DNA of 64,000 nt, taken from positions 1 to 64,000 of the forward strand of contig WQWN01000005.1 in the NCBI GenBank assembly GCA_009785325.1. The letters are read 5' to 3'. This document shows positions 2 to 59,199 of the stretch, piece after piece; positions within the stretch are counted from its first letter, which is position 1, and every line of letters starts with the position of its first letter. The stretch comes from Candidatus Saccharimonadota bacterium (lineage in GTDB: Bacteria; Patescibacteriota; Saccharimonadia; Saccharimonadales; Saccharimonadaceae). A program made the position numbers and the translations under genes. Under the pieces are notes generated by a model. The model ran no database searches, was not told the origin of the DNA, and worked only from the letters and a program-made list of their open reading frames with translations.

Positions 2-3000
2 CAGTCTGAAGCTTGTGATAATACCATGAACCCAAGTGTTGATACTAATGTATCTGTATGTCCAGCAGGATGGAGGCTACCAACCGCTGGTGCTGATGGC
101 GGAACTATGCAAAACAACAGTACTAACGAATTCTGGAATCTCAACCAAGCAGTGAACGGCGGGTTAACGACAACAGACGCAGGCTTACGTACACAGTGGC
201 TTGGTATGCATGGCGGAAACTGGTTTGATGGAAATTTCGTCAATACTGGCGATTGGGGTTTCTACTGGTCTTCTACTCAAAGCAATGCAGGTAGTGCGCG
301 CCATTTCAGCTTCAATACGATGAACGCCAGCTTCGCAAATGGTTCCAATAAGCAGATCGGACTAGCTGTCCGCTGCATAGCCGAACCAGTCTACATTCAA
401 GAGATAAACGAAAGTAACTGCCCTGTAGAACGCACAATGGCAGTAGACGCACGAGATAACCGCACATACTGGGTACAGAAGATGGGTGATGGCAGGTGCT
501 GGATGCAGACAAACCTAGCCTATGCTGGTGGTGGAGACAACAGATTTGGGGATGTGGTCAATCTCGTCAATGATGAGATTACTGGAAGCTGGTCCTCCGC
601 AAACTTCATGCGTCCACCAGGGGATAATCCTACCACCTTCCCACAAGCTCCCAGCACTTCAACTACCGGAATAGGACAATATGGCTATCTATACAATTGG
701 TGTGCAGCTATGGGCGGACAGTCTGCAGCTTGTATAAACTCTACAAATTCTACCGACCCTAACATATCCATTTGCCCTGCTGGGTGGAGGTTGCCGACGG
801 GTACTGTTGATTTCAATATGCTTAATAATGCCGTGAATAATGACCTCACCGATACAGACGTAGGACTACGTACACAGTGGCTCGGTATGTATAGTGGTGC
901 CTGGTGGAACGGTAATTTTGGCGGTGGTATCGGACAATGGGCTGGTTATTGGACTTCTTATCGGTCTACTGCTGGGACTGCTGACCTTTTCAGTTTCAGT
1001 GAGTGGGGTGTTAGTTTTCCTCCAAATCCTGCAGATAAGCGTGGAGGATACTCTGTACGTTGTATCGCCGAACCACCATCAGAGCGTATATATATCCAAG
1101 AGATTAATGACCTGAACTGCCCAGCAACACGCACGATGGTAGTAGATGCGCGAGACAACAGGACATACTGGGTACAACGCATGCCAGATGGACGCTGCTG
1201 GATGCAGACCAACCTAGCTTACGCAGGCGGCGGAGATAACAGATTTGGAGATGTGATGAATTTAAATAACGACAATCTCATGTGGGGTCCGACCATTGCT
1301 AGCTTCATGCGTCCACTGGACGCTAACCCTACTACTTATCCAGTGCAACCCAGTCAGGCTACGGATGGCGGTCTTAATCCCTCTGGTAGGCAATTCGGAT
1401 ACATGTACAACTGGTGTGCTGCTATGGGTGGACAGGTCGGTGCTTGTGCCACTGGTGGCGGCACAATAGGAGTGATTGATGACCAGATATCTATCTGCCC
1501 GGCAGGCTGGAGACTACCTAAGCATAATTGGCCAGATAGTTTGATAGAAGATGAGTTTACAGATCTTAATAATTCTATAAATAACGGTAATACCAATACT
1601 GATCTTGGTCTGCGCACATACTGGCTCGGTATGTATGCAGGAAACTGGATGTGGGATAACTTATGGGGTAGCGCACAATGGGGTAGCTTCTGGTCCTCTA
1701 CTGGCACATTTGATGGTTGGGGTTGGAGTATCAACACTATGGAGATGATTAGCGGGTTAGGTTGGGGGATCGATACTGTTGCCCTCCACTCTAACCATAC
1801 CGAAATGGATGGTATTTCTGTTCGCTGCGTAGCTAATCCAGTCCAACCTGAAGTTCCCTTTATCCAAGAGATCAATCAGCTCAACTGCCCAACAGAACGC
1901 ACCATGGTAGTTGACGCCCGGGATAACCGTACATATTGGGTTCAAAGAATGGATGACGGTAGGTGCTGGATGCAAACTAACCTCGCCTATGCCGGCGGCG
2001 GAGACAATAGGTTTGGTGATGTGGTTAATGGTCTGGTTGAAAATATCAATAACAGCTTCACAGAAGCCCGCCTCGGCAGACCAACTGGAGCGAACCCGAC
2101 CACTTACCCCACAGCCCCAAGCACAGCCACAGATGGTGGAGCCAATATATCCACCCGCCAATTCGGCTATCTATATAACTGGTGTGCTGCCATGGGAAAC
2201 CAACAAGGCACATCCGCCTGTATGAATACCGTCGCTCCACTACCAGACCCCAGCGTCTCGGTTTGCCCAGCTGGATGGAGATTACCTACAGGTATTCCTA
2301 CTACAGGCGAAGTTACTCTACTTAATAACGTTGCTAATAGTGGACTTACCAATACCGATATAGGTCTTCTAAATAATTGGCTCGGTATGCGTGGCGGCGG
2401 GTGGAGCAATGGAGCTTTTGTATCTACTGACATTTGGGGCTCCTACTGGACTTCTACTCAGAGCGGCGCCACGGGTGCTAGGCGATTAACGCACCACTCA
2501 AGTGGTGTCACCCCTGGCAATTGGGATGATAAGCAACTTGGTCGAGCTGTACGCTGCATAGCCGAGCCAGTGTATCTCCAAGAAGTCAACAGAGACAACT
2601 GTCCGACAGAACGCACCATGGTCGTCGACGCTCGAGACGACCGTACATATTGGATACAACGCATGCCAGACGGTGAATGTTGGATGCAGACCAACCTAGC
2701 TTATGCTGGTGGAGGGGATAACAGGTTTGGGGATGTGGTCTCTTTGACTAATAATCAATCTACAAACAGCTATACTTCAGCTAATTTCATGCGTCATCCA
2801 GATGCTAACCCAACTACCTTCCCACAAGCTCCAAGCACAGCCACAGACGGAGGAGTAGACCCTGCTACCCGTCAATACGGCTATCTCTACAACTGGTGTG
2901 CGGCTATGGGTAATCAGCAAGGTACAGGTGCTTGTCTAAACGGTACTATGCCAGCTCCAAATCAGGGTATCTCTATATGTCCAGCAGGCTGGAGGCTGCC

Positions 3001-3289
3001 AGTAAACCACCCAACTACAGGAAATGAATTTGCCTTGCTAAATAATGCAGTTAATGGCGGACTCACAAACACGGATGTAGGACTACGCACAAGTTGGCTC
3101 GGTGTGTATGCTAATGTCTGGTGGGGCGGTAGTTTCCTCAGTCCTAGCCCCTCTGGCCGTTATTGGTCTTCTACTCAGGCTAGCGGGACACAAGCGAACA
3201 TCTTCTCTTTCTCCCCGACTAGTGTAAGTGCAAGTGCTCCGTTTGATAAGCAGTTTGGTCATGCTGTGCGGTGCATAACTGCTAATTAA
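2..3289 (+). CDS. Multi-repeat FISUMP-like (Fibrobacter succinogenes major paralogous domain) surface protein, 5'-truncated by window edge
   Basis: About five repeats of ~210 aa with TMVVDARDNRTYWVQRMPDGRCWMQTNLAYAGGGDNRFGDV ... YGYLYNWCAAMG ... ISICPAGWRLP; the frame is open upstream of the ORF-track Met (QSEACDNTMN matches the repeat). Confidence 0.75.
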   Translation, partial: QSEACDNTMNPSVDTNVSVCPAGWRLPTAGADGGTMQNNSTNEFWNLNQAVNGGLTTTDAGLRTQWLGMHGGNWFDGNFVNTGDWGFYWSSTQSNAGSARHFSFNTMNASFANGSNKQIGLAVRCIAEPVYIQEINESNCPVERTMAVDARDNRTYWVQKMGDGRCWMQTNLAYAGGGDNRFGDVVNLVNDEITGSWSSANFMRPPGDNPTTFPQAPSTSTTGIGQYGYLYNWCAAMGGQSAACINSTNSTDPNISICPAGWRLPTGTVDFNMLNNAVNNDLTDTDVGLRTQWLGMYSGAWWNGNFGGGIGQWAGYWTSYRSTAGTADLFSFSEWGVSFPPNPADKRGGYSVRCIAEPPSERIYIQEINDLNCPATRTMVVDARDNRTYWVQRMPDGRCWMQTNLAYAGGGDNRFGDVMNLNNDNLMWGPTIASFMRPLDANPTTYPVQPSQATDGGLNPSGRQFGYMYNWCAAMGGQVGACATGGGTIGVIDDQISICPAGWRLPKHNWPDSLIEDEFTDLNNSINNGNTNTDLGLRTYWLGMYAGNWMWDNLWGSAQWGSFWSSTGTFDGWGWSINTMEMISGLGWGIDTVALHSNHTEMDGISVRCVANPVQPEVPFIQEINQLNCPTERTMVVDARDNRTYWVQRMDDGRCWMQTNLAYAGGGDNRFGDVVNGLVENINNSFTEARLGRPTGANPTTYPTAPSTATDGGANISTRQFGYLYNWCAAMGNQQGTSACMNTVAPLPDPSVSVCPAGWRLPTGIPTTGEVTLLNNVANSGLTNTDIGLLNNWLGMRGGGWSNGAFVSTDIWGSYWTSTQSGATGARRLTHHSSGVTPGNWDDKQLGRAVRCIAEPVYLQEVNRDNCPTERTMVVDARDDRTYWIQRMPDGECWMQTNLAYAGGGDNRFGDVVSLTNNQSTNSYTSANFMRHPDANPTTFPQAPSTATDGGVDPATRQYGYLYNWCAAMGNQQGTGACLNGTMPAPNQGISICPAGWRLPVNHPTTGNEFALLNNAVNGGLTNTDVGLRTSWLGVYANVWWGGSFLSPSPSGRYWSSTQASGTQANIFSFSPTSVSASAPFDKQFGHAVRCITAN

Positions 3290-32932: not shown

Positions 32933-33009
32933 GGGTTGTTAGCTCAGTTGGCTAGAGCATCTCGTTTACACCGAGAGGGTCGGGGGTTCGAGTCCCTCAC
33001 AACCCACCA
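32933..33009 (+). tRNA. tRNA-Val(TAC), CCA encoded
   Basis: GGGTTGTTAGCTCAGTTGGCTAGAGCATCTCGTTTACACCGAGAGGGTCGGGGGTTCGAGTCCCTCACAACCCACCA. Confidence 0.93.
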
Positions 33010-33056
33010 TTAGACTCTTACTTAAACCCTGCCCAAAAAAATTTGAGGCGGGGTTT
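33004..33056 (+). repeat. Inverted-repeat copy 1 (includes tRNA-Val 3' end and its terminator); partner 37378..37430
   Basis: ccaccattagactcttacttaaaccctgcccaaaaaaatttgaggcggggttt; 3 mismatches in 53 nt to the reverse complement of 37378..37430 by eye. Confidence 0.9.
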
Positions 33057-33170
33057 CTTGTTTTTGTAGATCCTATAAGCTCTAAATCGCTCTGTATTTT
33101 TCAGCGGCGCAACCCATATTTCTAATTATAATTATCTACTTTATGAAACGTTGCTTTCTTTGTTCATCGG

Positions 33171-35607: not shown

Positions 35608-37203
35608 ATGCGAACGCTAAATAGAAAGATATTAACTAGATTGCCGTTTATTACTGGTGTGGGAGTGATAGTGTTCGCCTCACTACAGACATTAGCTGTC
35701 AATTTAATTAATCCAAACTATACAGCTACCGCACTATCTATTACATCCATCACTTCTGAGTATGGCCCTGTTGCTGGTGGGCAGACTGTTACTATTACTG
35801 GGGATTTTGGAGTATCTGCTAATCCGCAAATATCAGCTGGCAACAATCATACTCTCGCCCTAGATAGTAATGGGCAACTCTGGGCATGGGGATATAATTG
35901 GCTGGGTCAATTCGGCAATGGAACAACAACTAGTAGTAGTATTCCAGTCGCTATAGATATGTCTGAGACCTTTGCCGATAGAAATATTGTACAGATAGTG
36001 GCATCTTGTAACGAACATTCACTTGCCTTAGATAGCGAAGGTCAGATTTGGGCATGGGGGTGGGGTTCTGAAGGTCAACTCGGTAATGGAACTAACACCA
36101 GTAGTAACGTGCCAGTCGCAGTAGATATGACTGGAGCTTTAGCAGGAAGAACTATTATTCAGGTAGCTGCCGGCTGGGGTCACTCACTAGCACTAGATAG
36201 TGAAGGTCAAGTATTTGCGTGGGGTAGTAATTGGTATGGTCAACTTGGCGATGGTACGAATACTAGTAGTAATGTCCCGGTTACTGTAGATGTTTCTGGT
36301 ATGTTCGCTGGGAGGGATATTATACAGATAGCAACTGCTAGTGCTCACTCACTTGCTCTAGATAATGATGGCAGTATATTTACATGGGGGCGGGGTATAG
36401 AAGGACAACTCGGCAATAATACAAACACTGGCAGTAACGTGCCAGTCGCAGTAGATATGACAGGTGTACTTGCTGGTAGTGATATTGTGCAGGTAGAGGG
36501 TGGTGGGAGTTTCAGTTTCGCCCTAGATAGTGCCGGTAGAGTCTTTTCATGGGGATGGGGGTTAAATGGCGAACTTGGTAATGGTGCGAGTGTTAATGTT
36601 AATATCCCAACTGCTGTAGATATATCTGGTGTATTAGCTGGAAGAACTATTGTGCGGGTAGCATCTGGTAGACAACATGCGCTTGCTATAGATAGTGAAG
36701 GACAGATTTTTACATGGGGACTCAACAGCAGTGGTCAGCTCGGCAATGGCACAATAGGCGGCATTTACAATACTCCAGTTGTGGTGGATATGACAGGTGT
36801 ACTTGCTAGTAGTGATGTTGTTCAAATAGCGGGTGCTTTTGGGAGCGGTTTGGGTCGCTCTGTTGCTCTGGATAGTGAAGGAAATGTGTTTGCTTGGGGT
36901 AGTAATTGGAATGGTCAACTTGGTAACGGCACTAGTGGCTGGAATGCCTATAGTGCTGTTCCTGTATTTATCATGAACCTAGGAGTTCCTACCAACCCCA
37001 TCCAATCCGTAACTCTCGGCGGTCTCTACTGTACAAATATTCAGGTAATTGACCCTAATACAATCACATGTATAGTACCAGCTCATCCAGCAGGAACAGT
37101 AGACGTGGTAGTTAATACACTACATGGATCAGCTACTCTATATCAGGGATATACCTATGTAGACATTCCTGATGTGCCGAATACGGGGCATGGGATGGCT
37201 TAA
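35608..37203 (+). CDS. RCC1-repeat secreted surface protein with IPT/TIG-like segments
   Basis: Signal-like N-terminus, SITSEYGPVAGGQTVTITGDFG, repeated HSLALDSEGQIWAWGWGSEGQLGNGTNTSSNVPVAVDMTG; ends DVPNTGHGMA. Confidence 0.85.
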   Translation: MRTLNRKILTRLPFITGVGVIVFASLQTLAVNLINPNYTATALSITSITSEYGPVAGGQTVTITGDFGVSANPQISAGNNHTLALDSNGQLWAWGYNWLGQFGNGTTTSSSIPVAIDMSETFADRNIVQIVASCNEHSLALDSEGQIWAWGWGSEGQLGNGTNTSSNVPVAVDMTGALAGRTIIQVAAGWGHSLALDSEGQVFAWGSNWYGQLGDGTNTSSNVPVTVDVSGMFAGRDIIQIATASAHSLALDNDGSIFTWGRGIEGQLGNNTNTGSNVPVAVDMTGVLAGSDIVQVEGGGSFSFALDSAGRVFSWGWGLNGELGNGASVNVNIPTAVDISGVLAGRTIVRVASGRQHALAIDSEGQIFTWGLNSSGQLGNGTIGGIYNTPVVVDMTGVLASSDVVQIAGAFGSGLGRSVALDSEGNVFAWGSNWNGQLGNGTSGWNAYSAVPVFIMNLGVPTNPIQSVTLGGLYCTNIQVIDPNTITCIVPAHPAGTVDVVVNTLHGSATLYQGYTYVDIPDVPNTGHGMA

Positions 37204-37377
37204 TCCAACTTATTTCTGTTTCTTCAGATACGTCAGATTCACAGCTTACCTTGTTGAGAATATTATTCTACGTTTCGAAAACAGTTTTACACTTATAAGT
37301 TATATTAGTTAGTCTGATGAATCCTCCAGCACCGATCAGCGGAAGTAAGAGGATTGATAAAAGTGAATTAAACCAAA

Positions 37378-37430
37378 AAACCCCACCTCAAATTTTTTTG
37401 GGCAGGGTTTAAGTAAGAGCTTAATGGTGG
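37378..37430 (-). repeat. Inverted-repeat copy 2 of 33004..33056
   Basis: aaaccccacctcaaatttttttgggcagggtttaagtaagagcttaatggtgg. Confidence 0.9.
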
Positions 37431-37515
37431 TCCTCTCTGGCGTTAATTACAAAAATTTGCTAACACTAGTGGACTACTGTCATAATAATATCACACAAAC
37501 CGATAATGGCAAAAA
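37421..37515 (+). repeat. Repeat A, inverted partner of 47693..47790
   Basis: tggtggtcctctctggcgttaattacaaaaatttgctaacactagtggactactgtcataataatatcacacaaaccgataatggcaaaaa. Confidence 0.9.
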
Positions 37516-37870
37516 TCTAGCCGATATTTACCCTCGCGCGACCAAGCGGCTCATCCGCCAGCACCGACCATTTACCGAGTCCGAAAAGCTCGCCATTATC
37601 GCCGATTACAAACAAAGCGCGATGGCTAAAGAACTGGTCGAAAAGTACGGCCGCCACCGCGCCAACATCAACAAGATACTGACCGACCACGGCATCACCC
37701 TCCGCCGCATCAACCCCTCCACGCGCGGCAAGGAGGCCGAAATAGCACGACTCTATCGCTCTGGCCTCAGCATCGCCAAAGTCGCCAAGCACTTCGGCAT
37801 CAGCCAAACGCCTGTCGTCAAATGCTTGCAACGGCAGGGGGTTGAGATGCGGGCGGCTGGGAGGAGGTAG
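37424..37870 (+). CDS. HTH protein (resolvase/transposase-type helix-turn-helix); start uncertain
   Basis: RGKEAEIARLYRSGLSIAKVAKHFGISQTPVVKCLQRQGVEMR; the ORF-track start lies inside repeat A. Confidence 0.5.
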   Translation: MVVLSGVNYKNLLTLVDYCHNNITQTDNGKNLADIYPRATKRLIRQHRPFTESEKLAIIADYKQSAMAKELVEKYGRHRANINKILTDHGITLRRINPSTRGKEAEIARLYRSGLSIAKVAKHFGISQTPVVKCLQRQGVEMRAAGRR

Positions 37871-37895
37871 TCATTCTTTATGTTAAAATATCCCT

Positions 37896-40055
37896 ATGAA
37901 TAAGGTCGTCGTCAAGCTAGAAAACTGCTACGGGATAAAGAAGCTCGACCGCACCTTTAAGTTCGCTGAACCTAACAAAAGTGCTTATTCTATATACGCA
38001 ACCAATGGGTCAATGAAGACTTCCTTTACAAAAACGTTTGATGACTTCAGCGCTGGGCGCGAATCGTGCGACATGATTTTTACTGACCGGAAAACCGTGC
38101 GCGAGATTAAAGGCCCAGATGGCAACGACTTGAATCCAGCCTCGATTTTCGTCGTCAAGCCATACGATGAGGGCTATTCGTCGGGCAAGACGTCAACGTT
38201 GCTAGTGAACAAGAAGCTCAAGGACGAATACGATAAGATTTGGGCAAACATCAAGGCACTGGAAGCGGAGCTCTTAAAGAGCCTCGTAAAATCGTCAGGC
38301 CGTAAAGATGCGGACGAAGAGGTATCGGAAGTATTTACTGGCACAAGCGGGAAATTTCTCGACTCTGTCCAACGCGTAAAAGGCGAAGTAAACGACGGTA
38401 AAGCCGCTATTTTTAGTGGTGCATCGTATAAGATCCTATTTGATGAAAAGGTTGCCAAAATCCTCGGTGACATACAGCCAGAGTTGACAGATTACATTGC
38501 TCGATACAACGACCTCGTTGACCAGTCGAAATACTTCAGGAGAGGAGTATTTAACCACACCAACGCCGCTACTATCGCTGACACCCTAGTCAAAAACGGG
38601 TTCTTTGACGCCTCGCATGCAGTCACATTGTCAGGCGGCGGTGGGAAGAGCGAGATTACATCCCAAGACGAGCTTAAAACTGTTATCGAGGGTGAATTAC
38701 AAGAAATACTGAAGGACGAAAAGCTACGCAAAGCGTTCGATAAGATAGATAAAAAACTAACTGGGAATCAGCAGGTTAAAGATTTTCGCGACTACATCAC
38801 AGAGCATCAGGAGTATATCGCAGAATTAGCAAGCACCAACCACTTCAAGCAGAAAATATGGATTGACTACTTTAAGGCGCATCTGGCTGAATACAATAAC
38901 CTCGTCAAGGCCCATGATGATGCGAAGACAGAGCTAGACAAGATCCGTAATCAAGCAAATAAAGAGCGTACCCGCTGGGCGGATGTCGTCGATATATTCA
39001 ACTTGCGTTTCAATGTTCCCTTTGTCCTGAGCGTCGACAACCAGAGCGATGTGATTCTTGATGGAATATTACCATCCCTGAGTTTTGAGTTTAAGGATGA
39101 GACGTCGCAGAAAACCATCAAGCGCGAAGAACTTCTTCAGGTTTTGAGTGTCGGTGAGAGAAAAGCCTTATACATCTTAAACATCCTGTTCGAAGTAGAA
39201 GCGCGTAAAGATTTAGGCGAAGAAACCCTGATGATAGTTGACGACATAGCCGACTCCTTCGACTACAAGAACAAATATGCGATTATCGAGTACTTAAAGG
39301 ATATATCTGAGATAAGCGGATTCTACCAGATTGTGCTGACGCACAATTTTGACTTCTTTCGCACAATCCAGTCCAGGTACATACCGCGAGACTACTGCCT
39401 GATGGTTGACAAGAGTGCTGGTGGCGTTTCGTTAGTAAAAGCAGATTATGTAAAAAATCCTTTCAAGCATTTCCTCGAGACATTATCGACGGTGACGAAC
39501 GATGCTATGCTCCTATCATTGATACCATTCATGCGCAATATCGTCGAGTATACAGAGGGTGAAAAGAGCGCTAACTTTTGCACTCTCACATCCGTTCTCC
39601 ACATCAAAGATACTACACCAACCGTCCAGGTTAAAAACATAAAGGAAATGGTGAAGAATGTCTTCGACAAAGATATAAAAGTCGGCGACGAAAACAAAAA
39701 TGTTGCCGACCTGTTCATAGAAGTCGCTGACACTATGGTGAAAAATACTAAGTCCCTGAGCCTTGAGTGCAAAATCGTCCTCTCGGTCGCCATCAGATTG
39801 AAATCCGAACAATTTATGATAGATAAGATCGCCGACCCTGAGTTCTTAAAATCGATAACCGGCAACCAGACGGCCGCCCTATCTGACAAATACTTGGAAG
39901 GCGAAACGGCTGCGGACTGTATCGGTACAATCAAACGAGTAAACTTGATAACTCCACAAAACATACACCTCAATTCGTTCATGTACGAACCGATCCTGGA
40001 TATGTCAGATGAAGAATTAAAGACTCTATACAAGGATGTGGTGAGCCTCAAATAG
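37896..40055 (+). CDS. ABC/AAA-type ATPase, putative R-M-linked defence ATPase
   Basis: 719 aa; P-loop IYATNGSMKTSFTKTF, signature-like LLQVLSVGERKALYILNILFE, Walker B TLMIVDDIADSFDYKNKYAI. Confidence 0.65.
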   Translation: MNKVVVKLENCYGIKKLDRTFKFAEPNKSAYSIYATNGSMKTSFTKTFDDFSAGRESCDMIFTDRKTVREIKGPDGNDLNPASIFVVKPYDEGYSSGKTSTLLVNKKLKDEYDKIWANIKALEAELLKSLVKSSGRKDADEEVSEVFTGTSGKFLDSVQRVKGEVNDGKAAIFSGASYKILFDEKVAKILGDIQPELTDYIARYNDLVDQSKYFRRGVFNHTNAATIADTLVKNGFFDASHAVTLSGGGGKSEITSQDELKTVIEGELQEILKDEKLRKAFDKIDKKLTGNQQVKDFRDYITEHQEYIAELASTNHFKQKIWIDYFKAHLAEYNNLVKAHDDAKTELDKIRNQANKERTRWADVVDIFNLRFNVPFVLSVDNQSDVILDGILPSLSFEFKDETSQKTIKREELLQVLSVGERKALYILNILFEVEARKDLGEETLMIVDDIADSFDYKNKYAIIEYLKDISEISGFYQIVLTHNFDFFRTIQSRYIPRDYCLMVDKSAGGVSLVKADYVKNPFKHFLETLSTVTNDAMLLSLIPFMRNIVEYTEGEKSANFCTLTSVLHIKDTTPTVQVKNIKEMVKNVFDKDIKVGDENKNVADLFIEVADTMVKNTKSLSLECKIVLSVAIRLKSEQFMIDKIADPEFLKSITGNQTAALSDKYLEGETAADCIGTIKRVNLITPQNIHLNSFMYEPILDMSDEELKTLYKDVVSLK

Positions 40056-40117
40056 CACGTGTCGCTTGTCGTCAACTGTGCTCGCCAGCGTGTACGCGGA
40101 TGTGTTATAATATACTC

Positions 40118-40795
40118 ATGTACGGAACACATGCACAGCAACTATTTGACGAACTACAAAAGCACGGCATAATTGGCGCGACCGGTAGGATTAGTGTCGA
40201 GCTTCTAAACGTGGAGTGTGATGTGAATGAGAAAAGTGCCGTTGGTGACCTACTTCAGGAATGGCTTGGCGCATGGATGACTGAGGTTGGCTTCTACCAC
40301 AGGACTGGTCCTAATACACAGGAGTTCCCTGATTTCTACTTGGGCGAAACGGACACCGCTGATCTACTAGAGGTAAAGTCGTTTAATTTTAATGCTACAC
40401 CAGCCTTCGATGTCGCCAACTTTGATGCGTATGTACGAAGCGTAACCGAGAAAGCATATCGTATCGATGCTGACTACCTCATCTTTGGTTATACCTTGAC
40501 GGAGCATGGCTTAAAAGTTGAGCAAGTTTGGCTGAAGAAAATCTGGGAAATAACCTGCCCTAGCGAGGCGTACGCCCTGAAGACGCAGAACAAACAAAGC
40601 AAGATTATCAACATCCGCCCTTATGATTTCAAGAATATGTCCCGCGGCTTCCAGCCATTCGCTAACCGTCGAGAGTTTGTCGAGGCGATTAGGCTGACGC
40701 TGGCAAGCTATCCAATGCGAACAATGCCGGCTCAGGATTGGATTGAGGCTGTTCAGACAAGTTATACCGGGACTCGTCCAGGAAGCTCGCTCTGA
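40118..40795 (+). CDS. Type II restriction endonuclease, NgoBV/NlaIV-like
   Basis: HGIIGATGRISVELLN, VGDLLQEWLGAWM, NTQEFPDFYLGETDTADLLEVKSFNF (PD-(D/E)xK). Confidence 0.6.
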   Translation: MYGTHAQQLFDELQKHGIIGATGRISVELLNVECDVNEKSAVGDLLQEWLGAWMTEVGFYHRTGPNTQEFPDFYLGETDTADLLEVKSFNFNATPAFDVANFDAYVRSVTEKAYRIDADYLIFGYTLTEHGLKVEQVWLKKIWEITCPSEAYALKTQNKQSKIINIRPYDFKNMSRGFQPFANRREFVEAIRLTLASYPMRTMPAQDWIEAVQTSYTGTRPGSSL

Positions 40796-42077
40796 CAACC
40801 CTGTCGCCGATAAGTCGAATAGCGTTTATGCTCACGGAGTTGCCCAGCAGGTCAAAAGCGTCTTTATAAGAAACTGGAGAGAGATCATAGTCTTCTGGAA
40901 ATCCGAAAAGGCGTAACCCTTCACGGGTGGAGAGGCGTCTGAAGCCGCTTTTGTCGACGACCGCCATCTTCGTTACATCCATCGCAACTAAAGTCGGGGT
41001 CAAGTCGTTTGGGTCTAGGATATTGCTTATATCAAAACTCAGTTTACCCGCAACGATGTTATAGCCACGCAGATCCTCTCTATCGGAAGCCTGCTTCGGC
41101 GTCTCGAAAGAGAGGTATTTCTTCTCGACGAGATCGTCTAGTGTGCTCTTCAATTTCACAATGCTCTCCTTACTGTTGTCGATAGCGCCCAGGTGGAAAG
41201 ATACTATATCATCCAAAGTGAGAGGCATGCCGTCAGACCATTTTATTCCCTTCAGCTCCGCCCAATCCTTTCGGCGTCGCTGACGAAGGATTGCTTCGAG
41301 GAGGGTCTTTTGCTCATCAGACACCGCACCCTTAAGTTCAACGTCCCAGCTGTGGATGTTGTTTTTACCACCACGCTTATCTTTAATCTGCTTACCGACT
41401 AGATCTTTGACCTCATATTTCTCTAGCAATTTCTTAGCGAGAGGCTTGTCGATATAAAGCGACTTGTCAGCCTCTGCTTCTAGAATATCTCCCAACTTGG
41501 ACGGCGACCGTGGAATGTCATCCAAATCTATGTAGCCATCAAGCGACCCGACGATATAGATCCTTTTGCGTTTTTGCGGTACGCCATGATTACTTGCATC
41601 GAGCAGTTCCCAAGAAGTTTTATAGCCCAAGTCTTCCAAATGAGACAGTATAGTCTCCAGTGTACGCCCAATAGGTTTTGCCTTATCAACACGGTCGTGG
41701 GTAACTAGACCCTCAACATTCTCTAGTAAGAATGCTCGTGGCTTTTTCTCGCGCAAGATTTCTTCGATAGTAAAGAACAGCGTCCCTCTGGTATCTAGAA
41801 AGCCTTTTCGTGAGCCTGCCGAGCTAAATGGTTGGCAAGGAAACCCAGCAAGTAATACATCAAAGTCTGGTATGTCTTTAGGGTCAACCTGTGTGATGTC
41901 TCCATGAATCTCATCTCCTGGGAAGTTCTTTGAATAAACAGAGATAGCGTGCGGTTTAATTTCAGAGGTAAAAACGCATTTGCCAGAGAGATCATTCCTC
42001 TCGAGCGCCTGTTCTAGACCGATACGGATACCTCCCAGTCCAGCGAACAAATCGATATATCTAACCGTTTCCCGCAT
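40689..42077 (-). CDS. C5-cytosine DNA methyltransferase
   Basis: YIDLFAGLGGIRIGLEQAL, LAGFPCQPFSSAGSRKGF, FLLENVEGL, GNSVSINAIRLIGDRV. Confidence 0.95.
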   Translation of the reverse strand: MRETVRYIDLFAGLGGIRIGLEQALERNDLSGKCVFTSEIKPHAISVYSKNFPGDEIHGDITQVDPKDIPDFDVLLAGFPCQPFSSAGSRKGFLDTRGTLFFTIEEILREKKPRAFLLENVEGLVTHDRVDKAKPIGRTLETILSHLEDLGYKTSWELLDASNHGVPQKRKRIYIVGSLDGYIDLDDIPRSPSKLGDILEAEADKSLYIDKPLAKKLLEKYEVKDLVGKQIKDKRGGKNNIHSWDVELKGAVSDEQKTLLEAILRQRRRKDWAELKGIKWSDGMPLTLDDIVSFHLGAIDNSKESIVKLKSTLDDLVEKKYLSFETPKQASDREDLRGYNIVAGKLSFDISNILDPNDLTPTLVAMDVTKMAVVDKSGFRRLSTREGLRLFGFPEDYDLSPVSYKDAFDLLGNSVSINAIRLIGDRVVRASFLDESRYNLSEQPQSNPEPALFALDSLPASA

Positions 42078-42311
42078 ATATTTTGATTATACCATAAGCG
42101 ACCGAAGAAAACTAATGAATCTCCCCATAAGAAATCGTGAAAATTCTAGATTCTCCCGCCGTCAAAACCAATGTATTCCCACCACCCCCAACAGATGAGC
42201 CACCTGTCGGGACAACCTCCAAACACCCCTATAATCGCCCTTCGACTGCATTTGACTTCCATGCTATCTTGAGACCAGCCCGCGCATAACGCCGGCAGAA
42301 AGGAGGTTCGC

Positions 42312-42566
42312 ATGAATAGAGCTAATAGTCACAATCGTCCGACGCTACGTCTTTTGCTGTCTGGCCACCAGACGAGAAGCACTACTGGTTTAGCGCACGA
42401 GCGGAGCGACACTCATATATCTTTTATATATGCCACCCATCGGGACAGGCATCACCACAGGGGGCTTAGTCCCGATGGGATCCGCCCCCGACAAACCAAA
42501 ATAATCCCAAGGGAGCTCCTATTATATAGGACTCTGGACAGACATCTCGGAGGCAGCTTTGGCTAG
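42312..42566 (+). CDS. Small ORF with strong Shine-Dalgarno upstream of the recombinase
   Basis: agaaaggaggttcgcATG; overlaps the next ORF; contains a DNA hairpin at 42436-42479. Confidence 0.4.
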   Translation: MNRANSHNRPTLRLLLSGHQTRSTTGLAHERSDTHISFIYATHRDRHHHRGLSPDGIRPRQTKIIPRELLLYRTLDRHLGGSFG

Positions 42567-42744
42567 TCCCACCAAGAAGCGACCGCGAGGTCGCCCAAGG
42601 ACTAGCAATGGTGTGACGATATTCCCCGTCCGCCGAAATCCTGATATTTCAGAGATTTCTCGGGCTTTTATCGAACTGGGGCAGTATTTTTCAGAGAAGC
42701 GCGTTAAAATGAATCAGAAAGGGGCGAAAAATGCTGGACTTTAA
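42559..42744 (+). CDS. Small basic AT-hook-like protein
   Basis: TTG start; MASPTKKRPRGRPRTSN; overlaps the recombinase ORF. Confidence 0.45.
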   Translation: MASPTKKRPRGRPRTSNGVTIFPVRRNPDISEISRAFIELGQYFSEKRVKMNQKGAKNAGL

Positions 42745-44402
42745 TCAAAATCCAAGGTTGAATGGGAGTGCGATGGAGAACAAAACACCGATGTTAAATC
42801 TGAAACGAGCAGTCTCGTACTTGCGCGTCTCAACCCGCGACCAAGCGGAGCGAGACGGCGAAATCGACGGCTACTCCATACCAGCTCAACGCGAGGCTAA
42901 TAAGGATAAGGCGTTGTCACTAGGCGCTGTGGTCGTCAAGGAGTTTTCAGACAAGGGCGCATCCGCCAAATATGCCAACCGCCCGGGTCTGCAAGATATG
43001 TTGGAGTATATCAAAGACCCCGACAACGAAATCTCCTATGTTATCGTCCACAAAATCGACCGCCTGGCTCGCAATCGCGAAGATGACGCCACGATTAGTC
43101 GTATTTTCCGAGTCAGGCATCAAACTCATCTCGACTAGCGAGGGTATCGACAATACGCCAGCCGGCATGATGATGCACGGCATCCTCGCCACGATGGCGG
43201 AGTTTTACAGTCAGAACCTCGCCCGTGAAGCTCTCAAAGGCATGGCACAGAAAGTAAAGAAAGGCGGCACGGTCGGCAAAGCACCCCTCGGCTACAAAAA
43301 TGTCCGCTATGTCGACAGTAACGGTCGTGAGGTGCGGACTGTCGAACTAGACGACGAGCGAGCGCCGTTCGTCACTGAGGCATTCAGGCTCTACTCGACT
43401 GGCAAATGGTCGATCCATAATCTCGCCATCGAGCTTGCCGACCGCGGATTCACCACCTCGCCGACTCCTCGCAAGCCCAGCAAGCCAATTAGCGAGAAAT
43501 CTCTCAACCCGCTGCTACAAAATCCCTACTATCTCGGTAAGGTCAAGTTTCAAGGCGTACTGCACGATGACAAACACGCCAAACTAACAGATGAAATAAC
43601 TTTTAGAAAGGTTCAAGAAGTAATGAAAAATCACCAAAACGGCGAGCGCAAGCGCATCAACGACCACTATCTCAAATCCACTGTCTACTGCGGTGAATGT
43701 GGCAGTCGGCTCATCATCAACGCCAGTAAGTCACGGAGCGGCACATATTATCTGTACTTCGTATGTATCGGCAGACAGTCCAAGCGGACGAGTTGCCAGC
43801 AAAAGGCGATCCTCACCTACGAGATCGAGGATCAAATCACCGAATACTACAAGCAAATCGAGTTCACGGAGGAATATTGCGAACAACTCCGTAAACAAAT
43901 GGTCGCCGACATAGCCAAGCAGAAAGCACTGTCCACCAAGAATCGCGACGAACTGCGTCGGGAGCGGGACAGGCTGAAAGACAAACAGCGCAAATTACTC
44001 GAAGCTTATTATGATAATGTTGTCAACAAAGACCTGCTCCGAGAAGAACAAGAAAATATCACGAAACAACAAACGAATATCGATGCCCAGCTGGCGATAG
44101 CGGAGGACGAATACGACATAGTCGAACAACAGCTAATGGCAACACTCAAACTGATTGGCAACTGCCACAAAGCCTACCAATCTGCTCCGCCGAATATACG
44201 ACGGGCATTCAACCAAGCCTTCTTTGAGAAAATCTATGTCAGCCCCAATAAAGCCGATAGTACAAAAGTTATCATCTCCGCTGATCTCGCCGAGCCATTC
44301 CACAGCACAGTAAAAAACCATCACCTTCTTAAGAGCAATGGTTGGAGTCAGGATGGTCTGGTGGGGGCGGCTGGACTTGAACCAGCGGCCAATCGGTTAT
44401 GA
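42731..44402 (+). pseudogene. Large serine recombinase (resolvase + recombinase + zinc ribbon), frameshifted near 43100
   Basis: Frame 1 RAVSYLRVSTRDQAERDGEIDGYSIPAQREAN...IDRLARNREDDATIS; continues in the +1 frame ESGIKLISTSEGIDNTPAGMMMHGILATMAEFYSQNLAREALKGM...CGECGSRL. Confidence 0.8.
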
Positions 44403-44434
44403 GCCGACTGCTCTAACCACTGAGCTACGCCCCC
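44359..44434 (-). tRNA. tRNA with CAT anticodon (Ile2 or Met), CCA encoded
   Basis: Reverse complement GGGGGCGTAGCTCAGTGGTTAGAGCAGTCGGCTCATAACCGATTGGCCGCTGGTTCAAGTCCAGCCGCCCCCACCA. Confidence 0.9.
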
Positions 44435-44557
44435 AATAGGAAAACTATACCATGTTAATTTTACTCATTCTCGGAAAACCTCAAGTAGACTTGGTTTCTC
44501 TCTCGAATATTTGAATTATAGCATAGATCGGCTGGTGGGTTTTGATATAATTGAAGT

Positions 44558-44992
44558 ATGAACGGAATGCGTACAAAAATTCGGAAGACTTGGTATCGGG
44601 TGAAGCGGGACTTTTTGACGACACAAAATGTAGTGATGATAGTAGCGATCATGTTGGGGCTGAATTGGACGTGGTCAGCAATTTCGACGATGCATAGGAA
44701 TTATGATCTACAGAGGCGGATTGAGAGTATGAGGCGAGAAGAAGTCATTTTGGATCTTGAGACGCAAGCTCTAGAGCATGAAGCGGCTTTTTATCAGTCG
44801 CGGGAGTTTCAGGAGTTGGCGGCGAGGGAAAGATTAGGATTAGCGAATCCTGGAGAGAGAGTGTTACTTTTACCGCCGAATAGTGAAGAAGCGACAAACA
44901 GGCACTCAGTAGTAGATATGAGTGAAAGCGAAGGAGAGAGTAATTTATACCAATGGATGACGTTTCTGTTTGGTGGAAGCGCTAGAAATTAG
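44558..44992 (+). CDS. DivIC/FtsB-like septum formation initiator
   Basis: TM, coiled coil, EHEAAFYQSREFQELAARERLGLANPGERVLLLPP. Confidence 0.7.
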   Translation: MNGMRTKIRKTWYRVKRDFLTTQNVVMIVAIMLGLNWTWSAISTMHRNYDLQRRIESMRREEVILDLETQALEHEAAFYQSREFQELAARERLGLANPGERVLLLPPNSEEATNRHSVVDMSESEGESNLYQWMTFLFGGSARN

Positions 44993-47538
44993 GACTTAAC
45001 TGGCAATAATGTACGTACTATAAGTATAGATACAGCTATAACTCCGACCACTCCAAATACTACACCTAAAACCCGCAAATTAACATCAGTTATCTCCGAG
45101 CTTGTCACTCCGTACCCAGTATTTGGTACTCCAGGCAATTGGCCTAACTGGTCTCCGTTACTTCCACCTCCTAACAGTTCATACTGTGCCACAAAAGTAG
45201 TGTCAGCTACTATAACTACGTCATCTATTTCATCATAAGATACAAATACCCCAGTAGTAGACTCTCCTATAAATTTCAACCAGCCTATAAATATATATTT
45301 CGTATCTGAATAATCTACTTCTGGCACTTCTTGCGGATGCCAGTGTGGAGAAATAGCACTAGGGCCAGAGATAGTAATTGACTCTTCTCTCAGGTCAGGC
45401 GCGCCTACACCAGTAAATATCCCTCGTGATTTGTCTGTAATATATGTGATAATCAAATCTACTTCTGCTACCGACCCGAATACGTAGTTAATGTCGAAGT
45501 TATTGATAGGATGATTAAATACAGATGTCGACGCGAACGAGAGAGGTATTCTATACGCAATATTCTCTAATTCTGCTGGTGGATTAAATGCTCCATTTCC
45601 AGCCCAGTTGCCTGAGAATATTACATCTTCACTAAGCGTAATACGGAGATAGCGCATTGGAGACGTAAGAGGAGCAGTTGGGATAGTGGCTAGGTAGGTA
45701 GTGATACCTGCTACATAGATGCCACCACCGTTGAAGGTAGCGATATTACTCAAGAAAGCGCCAGAATGTCCTATGAAGTGAGTACCAACAGCAGACCGAT
45801 AGATACCCCCTCCTCGGAGAGCTGAGTTGCCACTAATTAAACCGTTTATCATAAAAAACTCAATAGTACTCGTAGCCGTCGCACCCCATATATGCACCCC
45901 GCCTCCACGTTCTGCCGAGTTATTATTAATATTACCACCATACATATTAAACTTTGTATGATGGTTAGCTGCACCAACTACAGACACTCCACCGCCATTT
46001 CCGTCATTAGTGGCATTTACGCCAGTAGCGCCTATTGCGGTTGCTTCATTGTATGATATTGTGCCACCCTTTAGATTAAATATTGCATTACTTGTCACAT
46101 GAACTCCACCGCCACGTATTGCCTGATTACCCTTAATATACCCGTCATTCATTGTGAAAACTGACCCCGCCCTACCAACGAACACTCCACCGCCACCCAA
46201 AACATTTACATGAGCAGCGACAGTAATCGATGAAGTACATGTATTACGATGAATAGTGCCTCCGTTCATAGTAAACGCTGCTGCGCCTGAAACATGAACT
46301 CCGCCACCAGCTGGGAGAGTAGAGTTGTCACGAATTTCCCCATCTTCCATAATGAAACTACTTCCCGTTTCGCCTACAAACACTCCGCCGCCGCCACTCA
46401 GATGTACAGAATTGTCAGTAGGAATAGCGTTAGTAGTGGTACTGTTACTAATAATCCCTCCATTTTTCATAACAAACATACCGCCATTGCTGACATTTAC
46501 GCCACCACCTCTAGCACTGGTTACATTACCCCTTACTTCGCCGTAATGCATTATAAATAAAGGATTTCCAAATGTCTCATATGTGCTCCATGTACCAGTT
46601 AGGCGTGCATTACCTAAATATACACCCCCTCCAGTACCTAAGGCAGTGTTATCAAGTATGTCACCATAGTACATAACAAAGACTCCAGCACCCAGCACAC
46701 TCACGCCACCACCATCACCATGAAGACCTATTATGTGTCCACTCATATCGGATCCGTTGCCAGCATTATTTCTAATCACGCCACCGTTCATAGTAAAGGT
46801 AGAATCCCGGATACCAACACCTCCACCACGTCTAGCTGCATTATTTCTAATCACGCCACCGTTCATATCAAAAGCTGCACCATTTTCTAAATAAACACCG
46901 CCACCATGCCCTTCACCTAGGTTGAAAACTCGATTACTACTGATCTCGCCATCATTCATAATGAAAATAGCACCGCTCCCACTTACACGCACTCCGCTTC
47001 CCCCGTGACCGTTTGCAGTTCTATTGCCAGTAATCACTCCTGCATTCAGTATAAATTCTCCACCATCAATAATGTGAATTCCTCCGCTAATACCCACAGC
47101 ACTAGCATTAGGGTCTATCCTGGTTAGAGTAACTACACCCATCCCCTGTTCTTCTTCCAGCGCAAGGCGGCCACTTATAATAAAATGTCTAAAGTTTCCC
47201 TCAACATACAACGTCACTCCATCATTATCTCCAGACACTAAGGTTACATCTACACCCGAAGGAACATTAATAGCTCCGTTCGTAATATTAATATCATTCA
47301 TAACTCTAATGGTTCTGGTTCCTGCCTTTTCTGCGTAATATATAAGATCTACTAGATTGTTTACTTCCACAACCTCTCCGCTGAGTTGTATAGTATTTAT
47401 TGCCCCTACCTCTATTGAGCTAGATATATCAGTAAGAATAGTCTGTATCGAAAATACAGCTATCGTCGCTACAGATACTGCAAAACATAATCTAGTAATT
47501 GAACTACCGAACCTATTAAAAGTGTCAGCTACCCGCAT
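44989..47538 (-). CDS. Beta-helix (PMP-like) surface protein with VPNTG-type cell-wall sorting signal
   Basis: Repeats GGGVHVSG..FTMNGGTIHRN / GGGVFV; C-terminus PGVPNTGYGVTSSEITDVNLRVLGVVFGVVGVIAVSILIVRTLLPVKS. Confidence 0.85.
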   Translation of the reverse strand: MRVADTFNRFGSSITRLCFAVSVATIAVFSIQTILTDISSSIEVGAINTIQLSGEVVEVNNLVDLIYYAEKAGTRTIRVMNDINITNGAINVPSGVDVTLVSGDNDGVTLYVEGNFRHFIISGRLALEEEQGMGVVTLTRIDPNASAVGISGGIHIIDGGEFILNAGVITGNRTANGHGGSGVRVSGSGAIFIMNDGEISSNRVFNLGEGHGGGVYLENGAAFDMNGGVIRNNAARRGGGVGIRDSTFTMNGGVIRNNAGNGSDMSGHIIGLHGDGGGVSVLGAGVFVMYYGDILDNTALGTGGGVYLGNARLTGTWSTYETFGNPLFIMHYGEVRGNVTSARGGGVNVSNGGMFVMKNGGIISNSTTTNAIPTDNSVHLSGGGGVFVGETGSSFIMEDGEIRDNSTLPAGGGVHVSGAAAFTMNGGTIHRNTCTSSITVAAHVNVLGGGGVFVGRAGSVFTMNDGYIKGNQAIRGGGVHVTSNAIFNLKGGTISYNEATAIGATGVNATNDGNGGGVSVVGAANHHTKFNMYGGNINNNSAERGGGVHIWGATATSTIEFFMINGLISGNSALRGGGIYRSAVGTHFIGHSGAFLSNIATFNGGGIYVAGITTYLATIPTAPLTSPMRYLRITLSEDVIFSGNWAGNGAFNPPAELENIAYRIPLSFASTSVFNHPINNFDINYVFGSVAEVDLIITYITDKSRGIFTGVGAPDLREESITISGPSAISPHWHPQEVPEVDYSDTKYIFIGWLKFIGESTTGVFVSYDEIDDVVIVADTTFVAQYELLGGGSNGDQLGQLPGVPNTGYGVTSSEITDVNLRVLGVVFGVVGVIAVSILIVRTLLPVKS

Positions 47539-47692
47539 TTAAAATATCTTTCTCTCGCAAATCACTTTTATACCAGAAAACTTTACAAGTTTCCATACTC
47601 TATACAGTAAACACTAACATAATATAAAAGCTCACGCAATACTTATTATCAACCACTCTCTCAACATTTACTTAGCTAATATCTTACTGCAG

Positions 47693-47790
47693 TTTTTTGC
47701 CATTATCGGTTTCTGTGATATTATTTTTACAGTAGTCCACTAGTGTTAGCAGTTTCTGTAATCAACACTAGAAAGGACCACCAAACTTAA
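47693..47790 (-). repeat. Repeat B, inverted partner of 37421..37515
   Basis: Reverse complement tggtggtcctttctagtgttgattacagaaactgctaacactagtggactactgtaaaaataatatcacagaaaccgataatggcaaaaa. Confidence 0.9.
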
Positions 47791-56313: not shown

Positions 56314-57489
56314 CTACGAAGTCTGGTCCAACACCCGATTCGCCTGCCGCACCATCTGTCGCGCCTCGTCCGTCTTCACTACATATACCGTCGTCGCCGA
56401 CCCTTTCGCGCTCACCACCTCAGCACTCCCTTCATTCGCCACCTCATCCACTTCTACCCCCAAATACCCCAGCCCCTCCATCACCGCCGTCCGCACCACC
56501 ACACTTCTCTCCCCGATAGTCGCCGTAAACACGATCGCGTCTACCCCACCTATCACCGCTGCCATCTGCCCGATCGCTACCTTTATCTTCCGCACATACA
56601 TCCCAAAAGCCAGCTCCGCTCGCTCATCCCCAGCACTCTTCGCTTCAATCAACTCCCTCATATCATCCGTCGACCCACTCACTCCTAACATCCCAGCTGA
56701 TTTATTCAAATACTTCTCCAGTTCCTCATCGCTACCCAGGCCCAGCGCTCGCTTCACCGCCATCCCTGCTGCCACATCCATACTCCCCGCCCTCGTCGCC
56801 ATCATCACACCCTCCAGCGGCGAATATCCCATCGTATTCTCTACGCTCTTCCCATTCAACACTGCCGTCACACTACTCCCACTCCCCACATGACAAACAA
56901 TCAACTTCTCAGGCAAAACCCCACGTTCCTCCAAACTTTCCACCACACTCGCCACACTCAGCCCGTGATATCCAAACCTCTTAATCTCAAATTCATCCGC
57001 TAGCTCTTTATCAATAGCATAGTAATTCGCCGCATCTGGCTTCCCAGCATGAAACGCCGAATCACTCACACTCACCACCTTCGACTTTTTAAACGCCGCC
57101 GCCAGATATTCAATTTCCCGAGCCATATTTGGCGCATGTAGCGGCGCCCGCTCTTTCGCCACCTCCAGCCTCTCCACATACTCCGCATCCACAATATGAT
57201 CTTTCGCAAAATACCCCCCCGGCGCCACCATCCTCACCACCACCGCATCTGGCTCTTCGCCTTCCTTCAAAACTCCCTCAGCCACCAAAACATCATGTAA
57301 AATCCCCACCACCTCTCCCAGCTCCTTCACTCCCACCTCCACACTCTTCCCATTTAGCCCACAAACAATCTCCCCATCCTCAAACTCAAAATGCAACGAC
57401 GCCACCACCTCTTCCCCGCGATAAATCGCATACTTCCTACTCGAACTCCCCGGATTCGCCACAATTACCAACCTATCAGACATTCTCAT
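56314..57489 (-). CDS. ackA: Acetate kinase
   Basis: VIVANPGSSSRKYAIYRGE, GYHGLSVASV, ICHVGSGSSV-like LIVCHVGSGSSVTAVLNGKS, DTTMGYSPLEGVMMATRAG-like region. Confidence 0.92.
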   Translation of the reverse strand: MRMSDRLVIVANPGSSSRKYAIYRGEEVVASLHFEFEDGEIVCGLNGKSVEVGVKELGEVVGILHDVLVAEGVLKEGEEPDAVVVRMVAPGGYFAKDHIVDAEYVERLEVAKERAPLHAPNMAREIEYLAAAFKKSKVVSVSDSAFHAGKPDAANYYAIDKELADEFEIKRFGYHGLSVASVVESLEERGVLPEKLIVCHVGSGSSVTAVLNGKSVENTMGYSPLEGVMMATRAGSMDVAAGMAVKRALGLGSDEELEKYLNKSAGMLGVSGSTDDMRELIEAKSAGDERAELAFGMYVRKIKVAIGQMAAVIGGVDAIVFTATIGERSVVVRTAVMEGLGYLGVEVDEVANEGSAEVVSAKGSATTVYVVKTDEARQMVRQANRVLDQTS

Positions 57490-57528
57490 CTCCTTTTCTT
57501 TTACCCAATTCTACCACACCTACCTCTA

Positions 57529-57556
57529 TTGACTACCCCCCCCGACATGCTAATGT
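57529..57556 (+). promoter_or_regulatory. Promoter of RCC1 gene with C8 tract in the spacer
   Basis: TTGACT - 16 nt containing C8 - TAATGT. Confidence 0.55.
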
Positions 57557-57618
57557 TTATATATAAAGATTGTGCAAGTATAATTTTTAAGTTCATATCA
57601 ATAAGGGGGTTCGGTGCG

Positions 57619-59199
57619 ATGAAAATATTAAAACATTATTTAATCAGACTATCATCTTTTACTGCAATAGCAGTGATGGTAGTTTTTTCAATACAAACGA
57701 TCATACTTAATATGATTAATCCTACAGAGACCGCTACAGCACTCTCGATCACATCGATTACTCCAAACATTGGATCAATAGACGGTGGAGAATTAGTCAC
57801 TATTACTGGGGACTTTGGGATACCTACTGATGTTCCGCTGAACATTGTGGAGATATCGGCTGGGACTAATCACACACTTGCCCTAGATAGTAATGGTCAG
57901 ATTTGGGCTTGGGGAGCTAATGGTAATGGTCAACTAGGTAACGGCACTAATACGGCCAGTAGCGTTCCAGTTGAAGTAGATATGACCGGGGTACTTTATA
58001 GTAGAGATATTATACAAATAGTGGGCGGTGCTCCACATACACTCGCCCTAGATAGCGAGGGACAGATTTTTGCATGGGGACTCAACACCTCGGGTCAGCT
58101 CGGTGATGGCACAAACACCAATAGTAACATCCCAGTCGCAGTAGACATAACCGGAGCGCTTGCTGGGAGGAGGGTCGTACAGATAGCGGCCAGCCACCAT
58201 GCTTCCCTCGCCCTGGATAGTGAGGGTCGAGTTTTCTCTTTTGGAGGAAACTGGAGTGGTCAGCTCGGTGATGACACAAACATAAATAGCAATATTCCAG
58301 TTGAAGTAGATATGACCGGGGTACTAGCTGGAAGGAGGGTCGTACAGATAGCAAGTGGGAATGAGCACTATCTCGCCCTAGATAGCGAGGGACAGATTTT
58401 TGCATGGGGACTCAACACCTCGGGTCAGCTAGGTAATGGTACTTTTACTAACAGTAGCGTTCCAGTTGAAGTAGATATGACCGGGGTACTAGCTGGGCGA
58501 GATATTGTGCAAATCTCAACCAGTACCAGTCACTCTCTCGCTCTAGATAGCGAAGGTAGGATCTTTACATGGGGGAATGGCGGGAGTGGTCAACTAGGTA
58601 ACGGCACTAATACGGCCAGTAGCGTTCCAGTTGAAGTAGATATGACCGGGGTACTAGCTGGAAGGAGGGTCGTACAGATAGCGGCCGGGGGCGATCACAC
58701 ACTTGCCTTAGATAGTAGTGGTCAGATTTGGACTTGGGGGGGGAATGCTAACGGACAGCTCGGTGACGGCACTAATACAGCCAGCAACGTTCCAGTTGAA
58801 GTAGATATGACTGGTGTACTTGCTGGACGAGATATTGTGCAAATGACGACTGGGAATAGCTACTCTCTCGCCCTAGACAGTGAAGGTAGAGTTTTCGCAT
58901 GGGGAGCTGGAGGAGCATTCGGTAATGGAACAAATACAGGGAGTAACGTTCCAATAGCTATTACCAACTTCGGACAAGGTTTAATAGATTCACTTGATCT
59001 TTCTGTAACTATGGGTGGTAGTCCTTGTACTAATGTAAGAGTAGTTAATCCAACTACAATAACCTGTATCACTCCAGCACATCCGGCAGGAGTAGTGGAT
59101 GTTACTGTACGTACCCTACACGGATCAGTCACTCTATACCAGTCATACACCTTCATAGACTTACCAGACGTGCCGAATACGGGACATGAGAGATTGTAG
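57619..59199 (+). CDS. RCC1-repeat secreted surface protein with IPT/TIG-like segments
   Basis: SITPNIGSIDGGELVTITGDFG, repeats HTLALDSNGQIWAWGANGNGQLGNGTNTASSVPVEVDMTGVLAGR, ends DVPNTGHERL. Confidence 0.88.
   Translation: MKILKHYLIRLSSFTAIAVMVVFSIQTIILNMINPTETATALSITSITPNIGSIDGGELVTITGDFGIPTDVPLNIVEISAGTNHTLALDSNGQIWAWGANGNGQLGNGTNTASSVPVEVDMTGVLYSRDIIQIVGGAPHTLALDSEGQIFAWGLNTSGQLGDGTNTNSNIPVAVDITGALAGRRVVQIAASHHASLALDSEGRVFSFGGNWSGQLGDDTNINSNIPVEVDMTGVLAGRRVVQIASGNEHYLALDSEGQIFAWGLNTSGQLGNGTFTNSSVPVEVDMTGVLAGRDIVQISTSTSHSLALDSEGRIFTWGNGGSGQLGNGTNTASSVPVEVDMTGVLAGRRVVQIAAGGDHTLALDSSGQIWTWGGNANGQLGDGTNTASNVPVEVDMTGVLAGRDIVQMTTGNSYSLALDSEGRVFAWGAGGAFGNGTNTGSNVPIAITNFGQGLIDSLDLSVTMGGSPCTNVRVVNPTTITCITPAHPAGVVDVTVRTLHGSVTLYQSYTFIDLPDVPNTGHERL

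Follow-up and report, generated by a model that had tools for sequence, protein, structure and literature searches.

Inverted repeats at a defence island of a Saccharimonadota genome as probable attachment-site arms of a self-splitting serine integrase of tRNA and tmRNA genes

The archaeal 'suicidal' integrases of SSV1, pTN3 and pT26-2 are tyrosine recombinases whose attachment site (attP) lies inside the integrase gene (int) and whose target is a tRNA gene, and a 2021 review describes self-disrupting integrases as exclusively archaeal and as tyrosine recombinases only (PMC8371274). Integration of serine recombinases into tRNA genes has been called rare (PMC3218068). The large serine integrases of A118/LI, phiC31 and Bxb1 consist of resolvase, recombinase and zinc-ribbon domains and use a palindromic attP of ~47 bp, and structural work places the zinc-ribbon motif of their chromosomal site (attB) 5 bp nearer the centre (PMC3783163). 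Here, a stretch of 64,000 nucleotides from Candidatus Saccharimonadota bacterium (assembly GCA_009785325.1, contig WQWN01000005.1, positions 1 to 64,000; called the window below) is described, in which two inverted repeats, A and B, are very probably explained by a self-splitting serine integrase that inserts at tRNA and transfer-messenger RNA (tmRNA) genes.

Repeats A (37425-37518) and B (47691-47783) match in inverted orientation with 88% identity; the alignment spans 94 bp and contains a single 1-nt gap (E = 6e-28). They are the sole two copies of the repeat in the 678-kb genome, which is a metagenome assembly of 7 contigs, 76% complete and the only member of its genus. The repeat is absent at the DNA level from 100 genomes of the same family, and no Rfam family matched it. 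The first-pass annotation, made from the letters of the window, had reported inverted repeats of about 90 bp with about ten differences, and this holds with coordinates shifted by a few bases; the search it proposed for further genomic copies returned just A and B; and the helix-turn-helix (HTH) open reading frame (ORF) that it saw overlapping A (37424-37870) does begin within A. This ORF is coding, as a relative in genome G076 aligns with residues 1-147 of the HTH protein (36% identical) and the alignment of the family begins at residue 1 with (M/L)VALS. B matched as a frameshifted copy of residues 10-35 of the same protein. With high confidence, A and B can be read as copies of the right arm of an attP situated inside a large serine integrase gene, in which A opens the displaced C-terminal part, int(C), and B is recognisable as the decayed right arm of a second int(C). 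The features of the locus are listed below by window coordinates and strand; tRNA genes were called by ARAGORN, and tRNA-Met was also scored by Rfam.

32933-33009, plus strand: tRNA-Val(tac) gene, its 3' CCACCA joined to attP-left-arm sequence (ARAGORN; tail aligned).
33010-33064, minus strand: apparent attP left-arm copy, antisense ..FFGQGLSKSL/MVGCEGLEP, also a terminator hairpin (92% to 37370-37424; 93% over 30 nt to loci L122/L217).
37370-37424, plus strand: apparent attP left arm, the 3' end of the N-terminal integrase part, int(N), of another element, directly before the core (GGTTT at -19; 87% over 45 nt to L122/L217).
37424-37870, plus strand: putative int(C), 148 aa, the HTH-bearing C-terminus of the serine integrase, displaced from the rest of the gene (HTH_58/HTH_7; fused to the integrase in G064, G252, L171 and L204).
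37425-37430, plus strand: attachment core TGGTGG, antisense of the tRNA 3' CCACCA and common to int(C) starts and tRNA ends.
37425-37518, plus strand: repeat A, the core plus the putative attP right arm, equal to the first ~31 codons of int(C) (repeat and protein alignments).
37896-40055, plus strand: cargo, PDC-S46 candidate defence ATPase, 719 aa (PADLOC, E = 3.9e-262).
40100-40795, plus strand: cargo, NgoBV-like type II restriction endonuclease (PF09564, E = 2.4e-42).
40689-42077, minus strand: cargo, C5-cytosine DNA methyltransferase (PF00145, E = 4.4e-78).
42731-44402, plus strand: int(N), large serine integrase, its ORF ending inside tRNA-Met (PF00239, PF07508 and PF13408; 58% to L158/G092).
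44340-44358, plus strand: GGTTGGAGT, a left half-site motif of attP with which int(N) ends; a G occupies position -18 relative to the core (alignment on the core).
44359-44434, minus strand: tRNA-Met(cat), the putative integration target, with the second core at 44359-44364 (ARAGORN; Rfam, 75.8 bits); it adjoins DivIC in nearly all relatives.
44558-44992, plus strand: DivIC-like gene, which together with tRNA-Met forms a block inverted relative to relatives (PF04977; synteny).
47691-47783, minus strand: repeat B, apparent relic of a second int(C) start, frameshifted; core at 47778-47783, then 87 bp (alignments).

The ORF of int(N) reads into tRNA-Met(cat) without a stop. Its end frame (..SQDGLV/GAAGLEPA) and the frame of the HTH ORF (..MV/VLSG) are in phase at the core, so that a circle would yield one joined protein. 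Since the HTH gene corresponds to int(C) and int(N) runs into tRNA-Met, a 7-kb defence island spans 37425-44364; on this sequence evidence it is an element inserted in tRNA-Met that carries PDC-S46, the NgoBV-like endonuclease, the C5-methylase and the integrase. The segment from A to B is a composite of this island and 3.4 kb of chromosome. The three integrase domains lie over two frames of 42731-44402, as a 1-nt frameshift near 43090 makes the frame 42731-43138 go on in the frame 42972-44402; it may reflect decay or an assembly error. Relatives of this integrase read through the position of the frameshift. The element in the window is decayed by this frameshift, and mosaic. The predicted structure of int(C) alone has a mean predicted local distance difference test score of 68 and is confident in the last HTH only. 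A sequence search of the PDB gave nothing for int(N) and short HTH domains only for int(C), and close relatives (>30%) were not found in phage and plasmid collections. The PDC-S46 gene, a near-perfect PADLOC match, adjoins the NgoBV-like restriction-modification pair, which has the look of a small mobile defence island.

Comparison with the 80 nearest integrases, drawn from 85,000 species genomes, reveals the same arrangement on a wide scale. Among them, 72 adjoin a tRNA or tmRNA gene. An antisense tRNA gene lies downstream of 66, with its 3' end inside the integrase ORF in all 66 and in one phase with that ORF in 61 of 64; six further integrases of the 80 are terminated by a tmRNA gene. The related integrases found first already included seven ORFs ending in an antisense tRNA, and an HTH in the same ORF occurred only in G064, where no tRNA is present. 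The gene is unsplit in G252:C265 (L118), where FFGQGLNNLFLVELTETHSNYK runs straight across the core, and likewise in G064, Aeromicrobium L171 and Kibdelosporangium L204. For 485 nt before the core, loci L122 and L217 share 98.6% identity; beyond it, int(C) follows in one locus and tmRNA in the other. By their sequences, they are one element in two states. An int(C) is present in 37 of 40 genomes having int(N). Where the two parts of a split gene share a contig, 17/17 pairs have int(C) on the strand of int(N) and 3-45 kb upstream of it, and eight further pairs rest on an inferred contig. At about 20 loci the int(C) protein begins at the core, and the DNA of the family starts with TGGTGG or TGGTCG (the tRNA 3' end in antisense) after an unrelated flank, several with a terminator hairpin. 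In Streptomyces scabiei 87.22, the joined flanks (450 nt) of a 31-kb island are uninterrupted in Streptomyces G466 (3-442, 86%), and somewhat shorter spans of this empty site are found in other Streptomyces too, as expected of a tRNA island. Sequence comparison shows the gene split, the anatomy of the attachment site, the targeting of tRNA and tmRNA genes, the island ends and the flipped block.

Two observations concern other members of this clade. Integrases at L217, L181, L161, L216, L234 and L236 end in tmRNA genes, and ssrA is thus also a target. Second int(C)-like ORFs stand beside the target tRNA at L230, L186/L263 and L192 (Ornithinimicrobium, Actinomyces), suggesting tandem elements with hybrid integrase genes at the joints.

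The proposed course of events is as follows. The circular element would carry one uninterrupted integrase gene, encoding the catalytic, recombinase and zinc-ribbon domains, a linker containing attP, and a tandem-HTH C-terminal domain. The recombination partner of attP would be the CCA at the 3' end of a tRNA or tmRNA gene, the T-loop GTTCGA serving as attB half-site, and the element would thereby be inserted and the integrase gene split, because attP lies within it. Then int(N) would remain at the tRNA with a new tail, 'LVGxxGLEPA', read from the antisense tRNA, and int(C), starting at the core, would be moved to the far end of the element. A later inversion between the A and B sites may have come about by homologous recombination or by a breakpoint in tandem elements. 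We infer this order of events, as well as recombination between A and B as a cause of the inversion.

The attachment site was defined from an alignment anchored on the core, which comprised the ends of 56 int(N) and the starts of 20 int(C) sequences. The left half-site has GTT at -18 to -16 in 56/56 int(N) ends and the right half-site AA at +26/+27 in 20/20 int(C) starts, so that attP consists of two inverted GTTYGARTA half-sites centred on TGGTGG, in the size range (40-50 bp) of large serine integrase sites. The T-loop GTTCGA of the tRNA is at +18 to +23, 5 bases nearer the centre than the attP half-site. As this inward shift matches the attB rule of serine integrases, the conserved T-loop together with CCA is very probably what the enzyme targets. 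Such recognition fits the variety of target genes, which comprise tRNA Ala, Val, Arg, Leu, Pro, Met, Ser, Gln, Ile and Lys as well as tmRNA. This genome has a clean antisense terminator for the tRNA inside int (-11.8 kcal/mol plus T6), but such terminators are not general, as they occur at only 7/56 junctions against 4 in control windows.

The system shares with the SSV1 type an attP within int, partition of the gene upon integration, a tRNA target and int(N) and int(C) left at the two ends. In contrast, it has serine-recombinase domains rather than the tyrosine domain Phage_integr_3 and is found in bacterial hosts, and thus it works like an SSV1-type integrase without being a member of that group. 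Moreover, int(N) retains the entire catalytic part; only the HTH C-terminus is lost, replaced by a tRNA-encoded tail. The clade differs from A118/LI, phiC31 and Bxb1 in its extra HTH C-terminal domain, in its attP within the gene and in targeting the T-loop/CCA of many tRNA and tmRNA genes. Serine recombinases at a tRNA 3' end are represented by phiRSM1 of Ralstonia (tRNA-Ser) and by actinomycete integrative and conjugative elements of Mycobacterium (tRNA-Leu) (PMC3218068; PMC3816273), but the Int of phiRSM1 is small, and the attP of that phage lies outside int, in the interval from ORF14 (int) to ORF15. As in Islander-type tRNA islands, the integrase stands by a regenerated tRNA with cargo behind, whereas the Islander enzymes are tyrosine integrases; here the enzyme is of the serine type, the core is 4-8 bp and a piece of the integrase gene is displaced instead of a tRNA fragment. 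No paper describing self-splitting serine integrases was found in the literature searched, subscription journals and preprints being outside that search.

The 53-bp repeat that the first-pass annotation saw abutting A is real and extends to 61 nt (92%, 33004-33064 vs 37370-37430); a third, shorter copy follows tRNA-Ala on contig C1. Because the sequence before A and B match attP arms, the two nested repeat pairs proposed there would represent the left arm and the right arm, respectively, of a single type of attP that several related elements have in common. By sequence, the 53-bp repeat is the attP left arm of related elements; the copy at 37370-37424 has GGTTT at -19 from the core, matching 56 int(N) ends, and the copy at 33010-33064 is probably the end of an older element at tRNA-Val, or the scar left by one. 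That 37370-37424 is a native trailer of tRNA-Met was ruled out by the 19-nt spacing and the similarity to integrase gene ends. Both tRNA-Val (33010-33064) and tRNA-Ala (G000:C1:174244-174270, L004) are joined to an attP left arm, which suggests former elements at both genes whose loss left the arm behind as a terminator.

In 15 relatives the common order is the homologue of the gene at 49663 (+), tRNA-Met (-) and DivIC (+), followed in most by tRNA-Met2, 16197(-) and 15151(-). The tRNA-Met/DivIC block of the window is flipped between the same neighbours, and the breakpoint intervals (19.98-44.36 and 44.99-49.66 kb) contain A and B. An invertible segment had been proposed, and to this extent the proposal stands; its promoter switch is not supported. 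The inversion would be a single past rearrangement, and there is no sign of a running switch. In the neighbourhoods L142-L157, the tRNA-Met after DivIC switches strand among relatives, and the gap from the 49663 homologue to tRNA-Met ranges from 1 to 9 kb, marking a hot spot.

How the block came to be flipped can be explained in two ways. Recombination between A and B over their 94-bp homology, as attL-type ends of two elements, has about an even chance of being correct: they are the only inverted repeats of at least 40 bp bridging both breakpoint intervals, but these intervals are wide, and the window genes at 20-37 kb are absent from this position in relatives, so that other rearrangements also occurred. 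It is somewhat less probable, though worth serious consideration, that two elements E1-E2 stood in tandem in tRNA-Met, with B as the int(C) of E1 by its own trailer on the kinase side, the left arm and A as the E1/E2 joint, and the inversion breakpoint in E1 about 94 bp into int(C). The attP left arm before A at the right spacing would make A an int(N)-core-int(C) joint of the kind that tandems give, with a similar joint in Actinomyces L186/L263; this requires deletion of nearly all of E1, of whose int(N) at most 55 bp remains. Two further origins of the repeats were rejected. A and B are not terminal inverted repeats of a 10-kb transposon, as the island stops at tRNA-Met and not at B; and B as the remnant of an element in a second tRNA-Met beyond DivIC is unproven, as the kinase is not syntenic.

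A reading in line with the first-pass annotation has A and B bound a phase-variation switch, in which the serine recombinase, named there as a possible agent, flips 10 kb and exchanges the genes read from repeat-borne promoters. The flipped block with A and B at its breakpoint intervals and a -35/-10-like pair and hairpin readable in B speak for such a switch, which is nevertheless improbable, because A is int(C) coding sequence with relatives aligned from residue 1, B is a decayed and frameshifted relic of the same coding start, and a comparable pair of repeats is missing from the other genomes of the family. The recombinase and restriction-modification genes do lie between the repeats, but the recombinase is not intact, and it belongs to a clade of tRNA-targeting integrases rather than invertases; the surface protein counted in the segment (44989-47538) sits past tRNA-Met and DivIC, outside the island. 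A promoter or riboregulator function of the repeats, for which B folds well as RNA (z -2.6 to -3.3) and ends in CCACCA, was dropped because A proved coding; B may also carry a promoter for the kinase gene. It is also very unlikely, if anything even more so than the switch, that the HTH gene encodes a regulator of its own, or a recombination directionality factor, and starts at the island end by coincidence. The core does often give an integrated int(C) ORF a usable start codon (ATG/TTG GTG), but four unsplit genes, in which the HTH part and the integrase are fused in frame, argue against coincidence, as do the 485 nt shared by the two states at L122/L217.

Several points weigh against the self-splitting integrase as the origin of A and B. 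From a relic as short as B, a second complete element cannot be proved. The flank of A is an attP-type left arm and not a clean tRNA trailer, and therefore a tandem or second element has to be assumed. The pair of int(N) and int(C) in the window is imperfect, with int(N) frameshifted and its left arm unlike the arm beside A; the core is short (4-8 bp); and same-genus relatives that could provide an empty site for this island do not exist. As the island is known from a metagenome assembly, misassembly at the repeats is possible.

Elsewhere in the window, two RCC1-like repeat surface proteins (35608-37203 and 57391-59199) have 165-bp repeat units and share a 190-bp 3' end (70%), and the first 3 kb (26-3289) encode a protein with four to five repeats of ~700 nt that are 60-72% alike.

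The group is wide in bacteria, including Actinobacteria, Firmicutes and Saccharibacteria. Many 'recombinase' proteins ending in '..VGxxGLEPA' and many small orphan HTH proteins would be halves of one gene, and the anatomy of the split integrase supplies exact island ends. Splitting might tentatively be regarded as a directionality switch. Integration would be the work of the full-length enzyme, which has the HTH C-terminus, and would itself replace this C-terminus by a tRNA-encoded tail; the integrated enzyme would then no longer integrate further copies, and either would be inert or would depend for excision on Int(C), translated from the start codon that the core provides, as a directionality factor in trans. 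With split integrases, the control of integration direction can be tested directly. Since these enzymes appear to read the T-loop and CCA, which are found in nearly every genome, they are candidate integration tools with a broadly available target.

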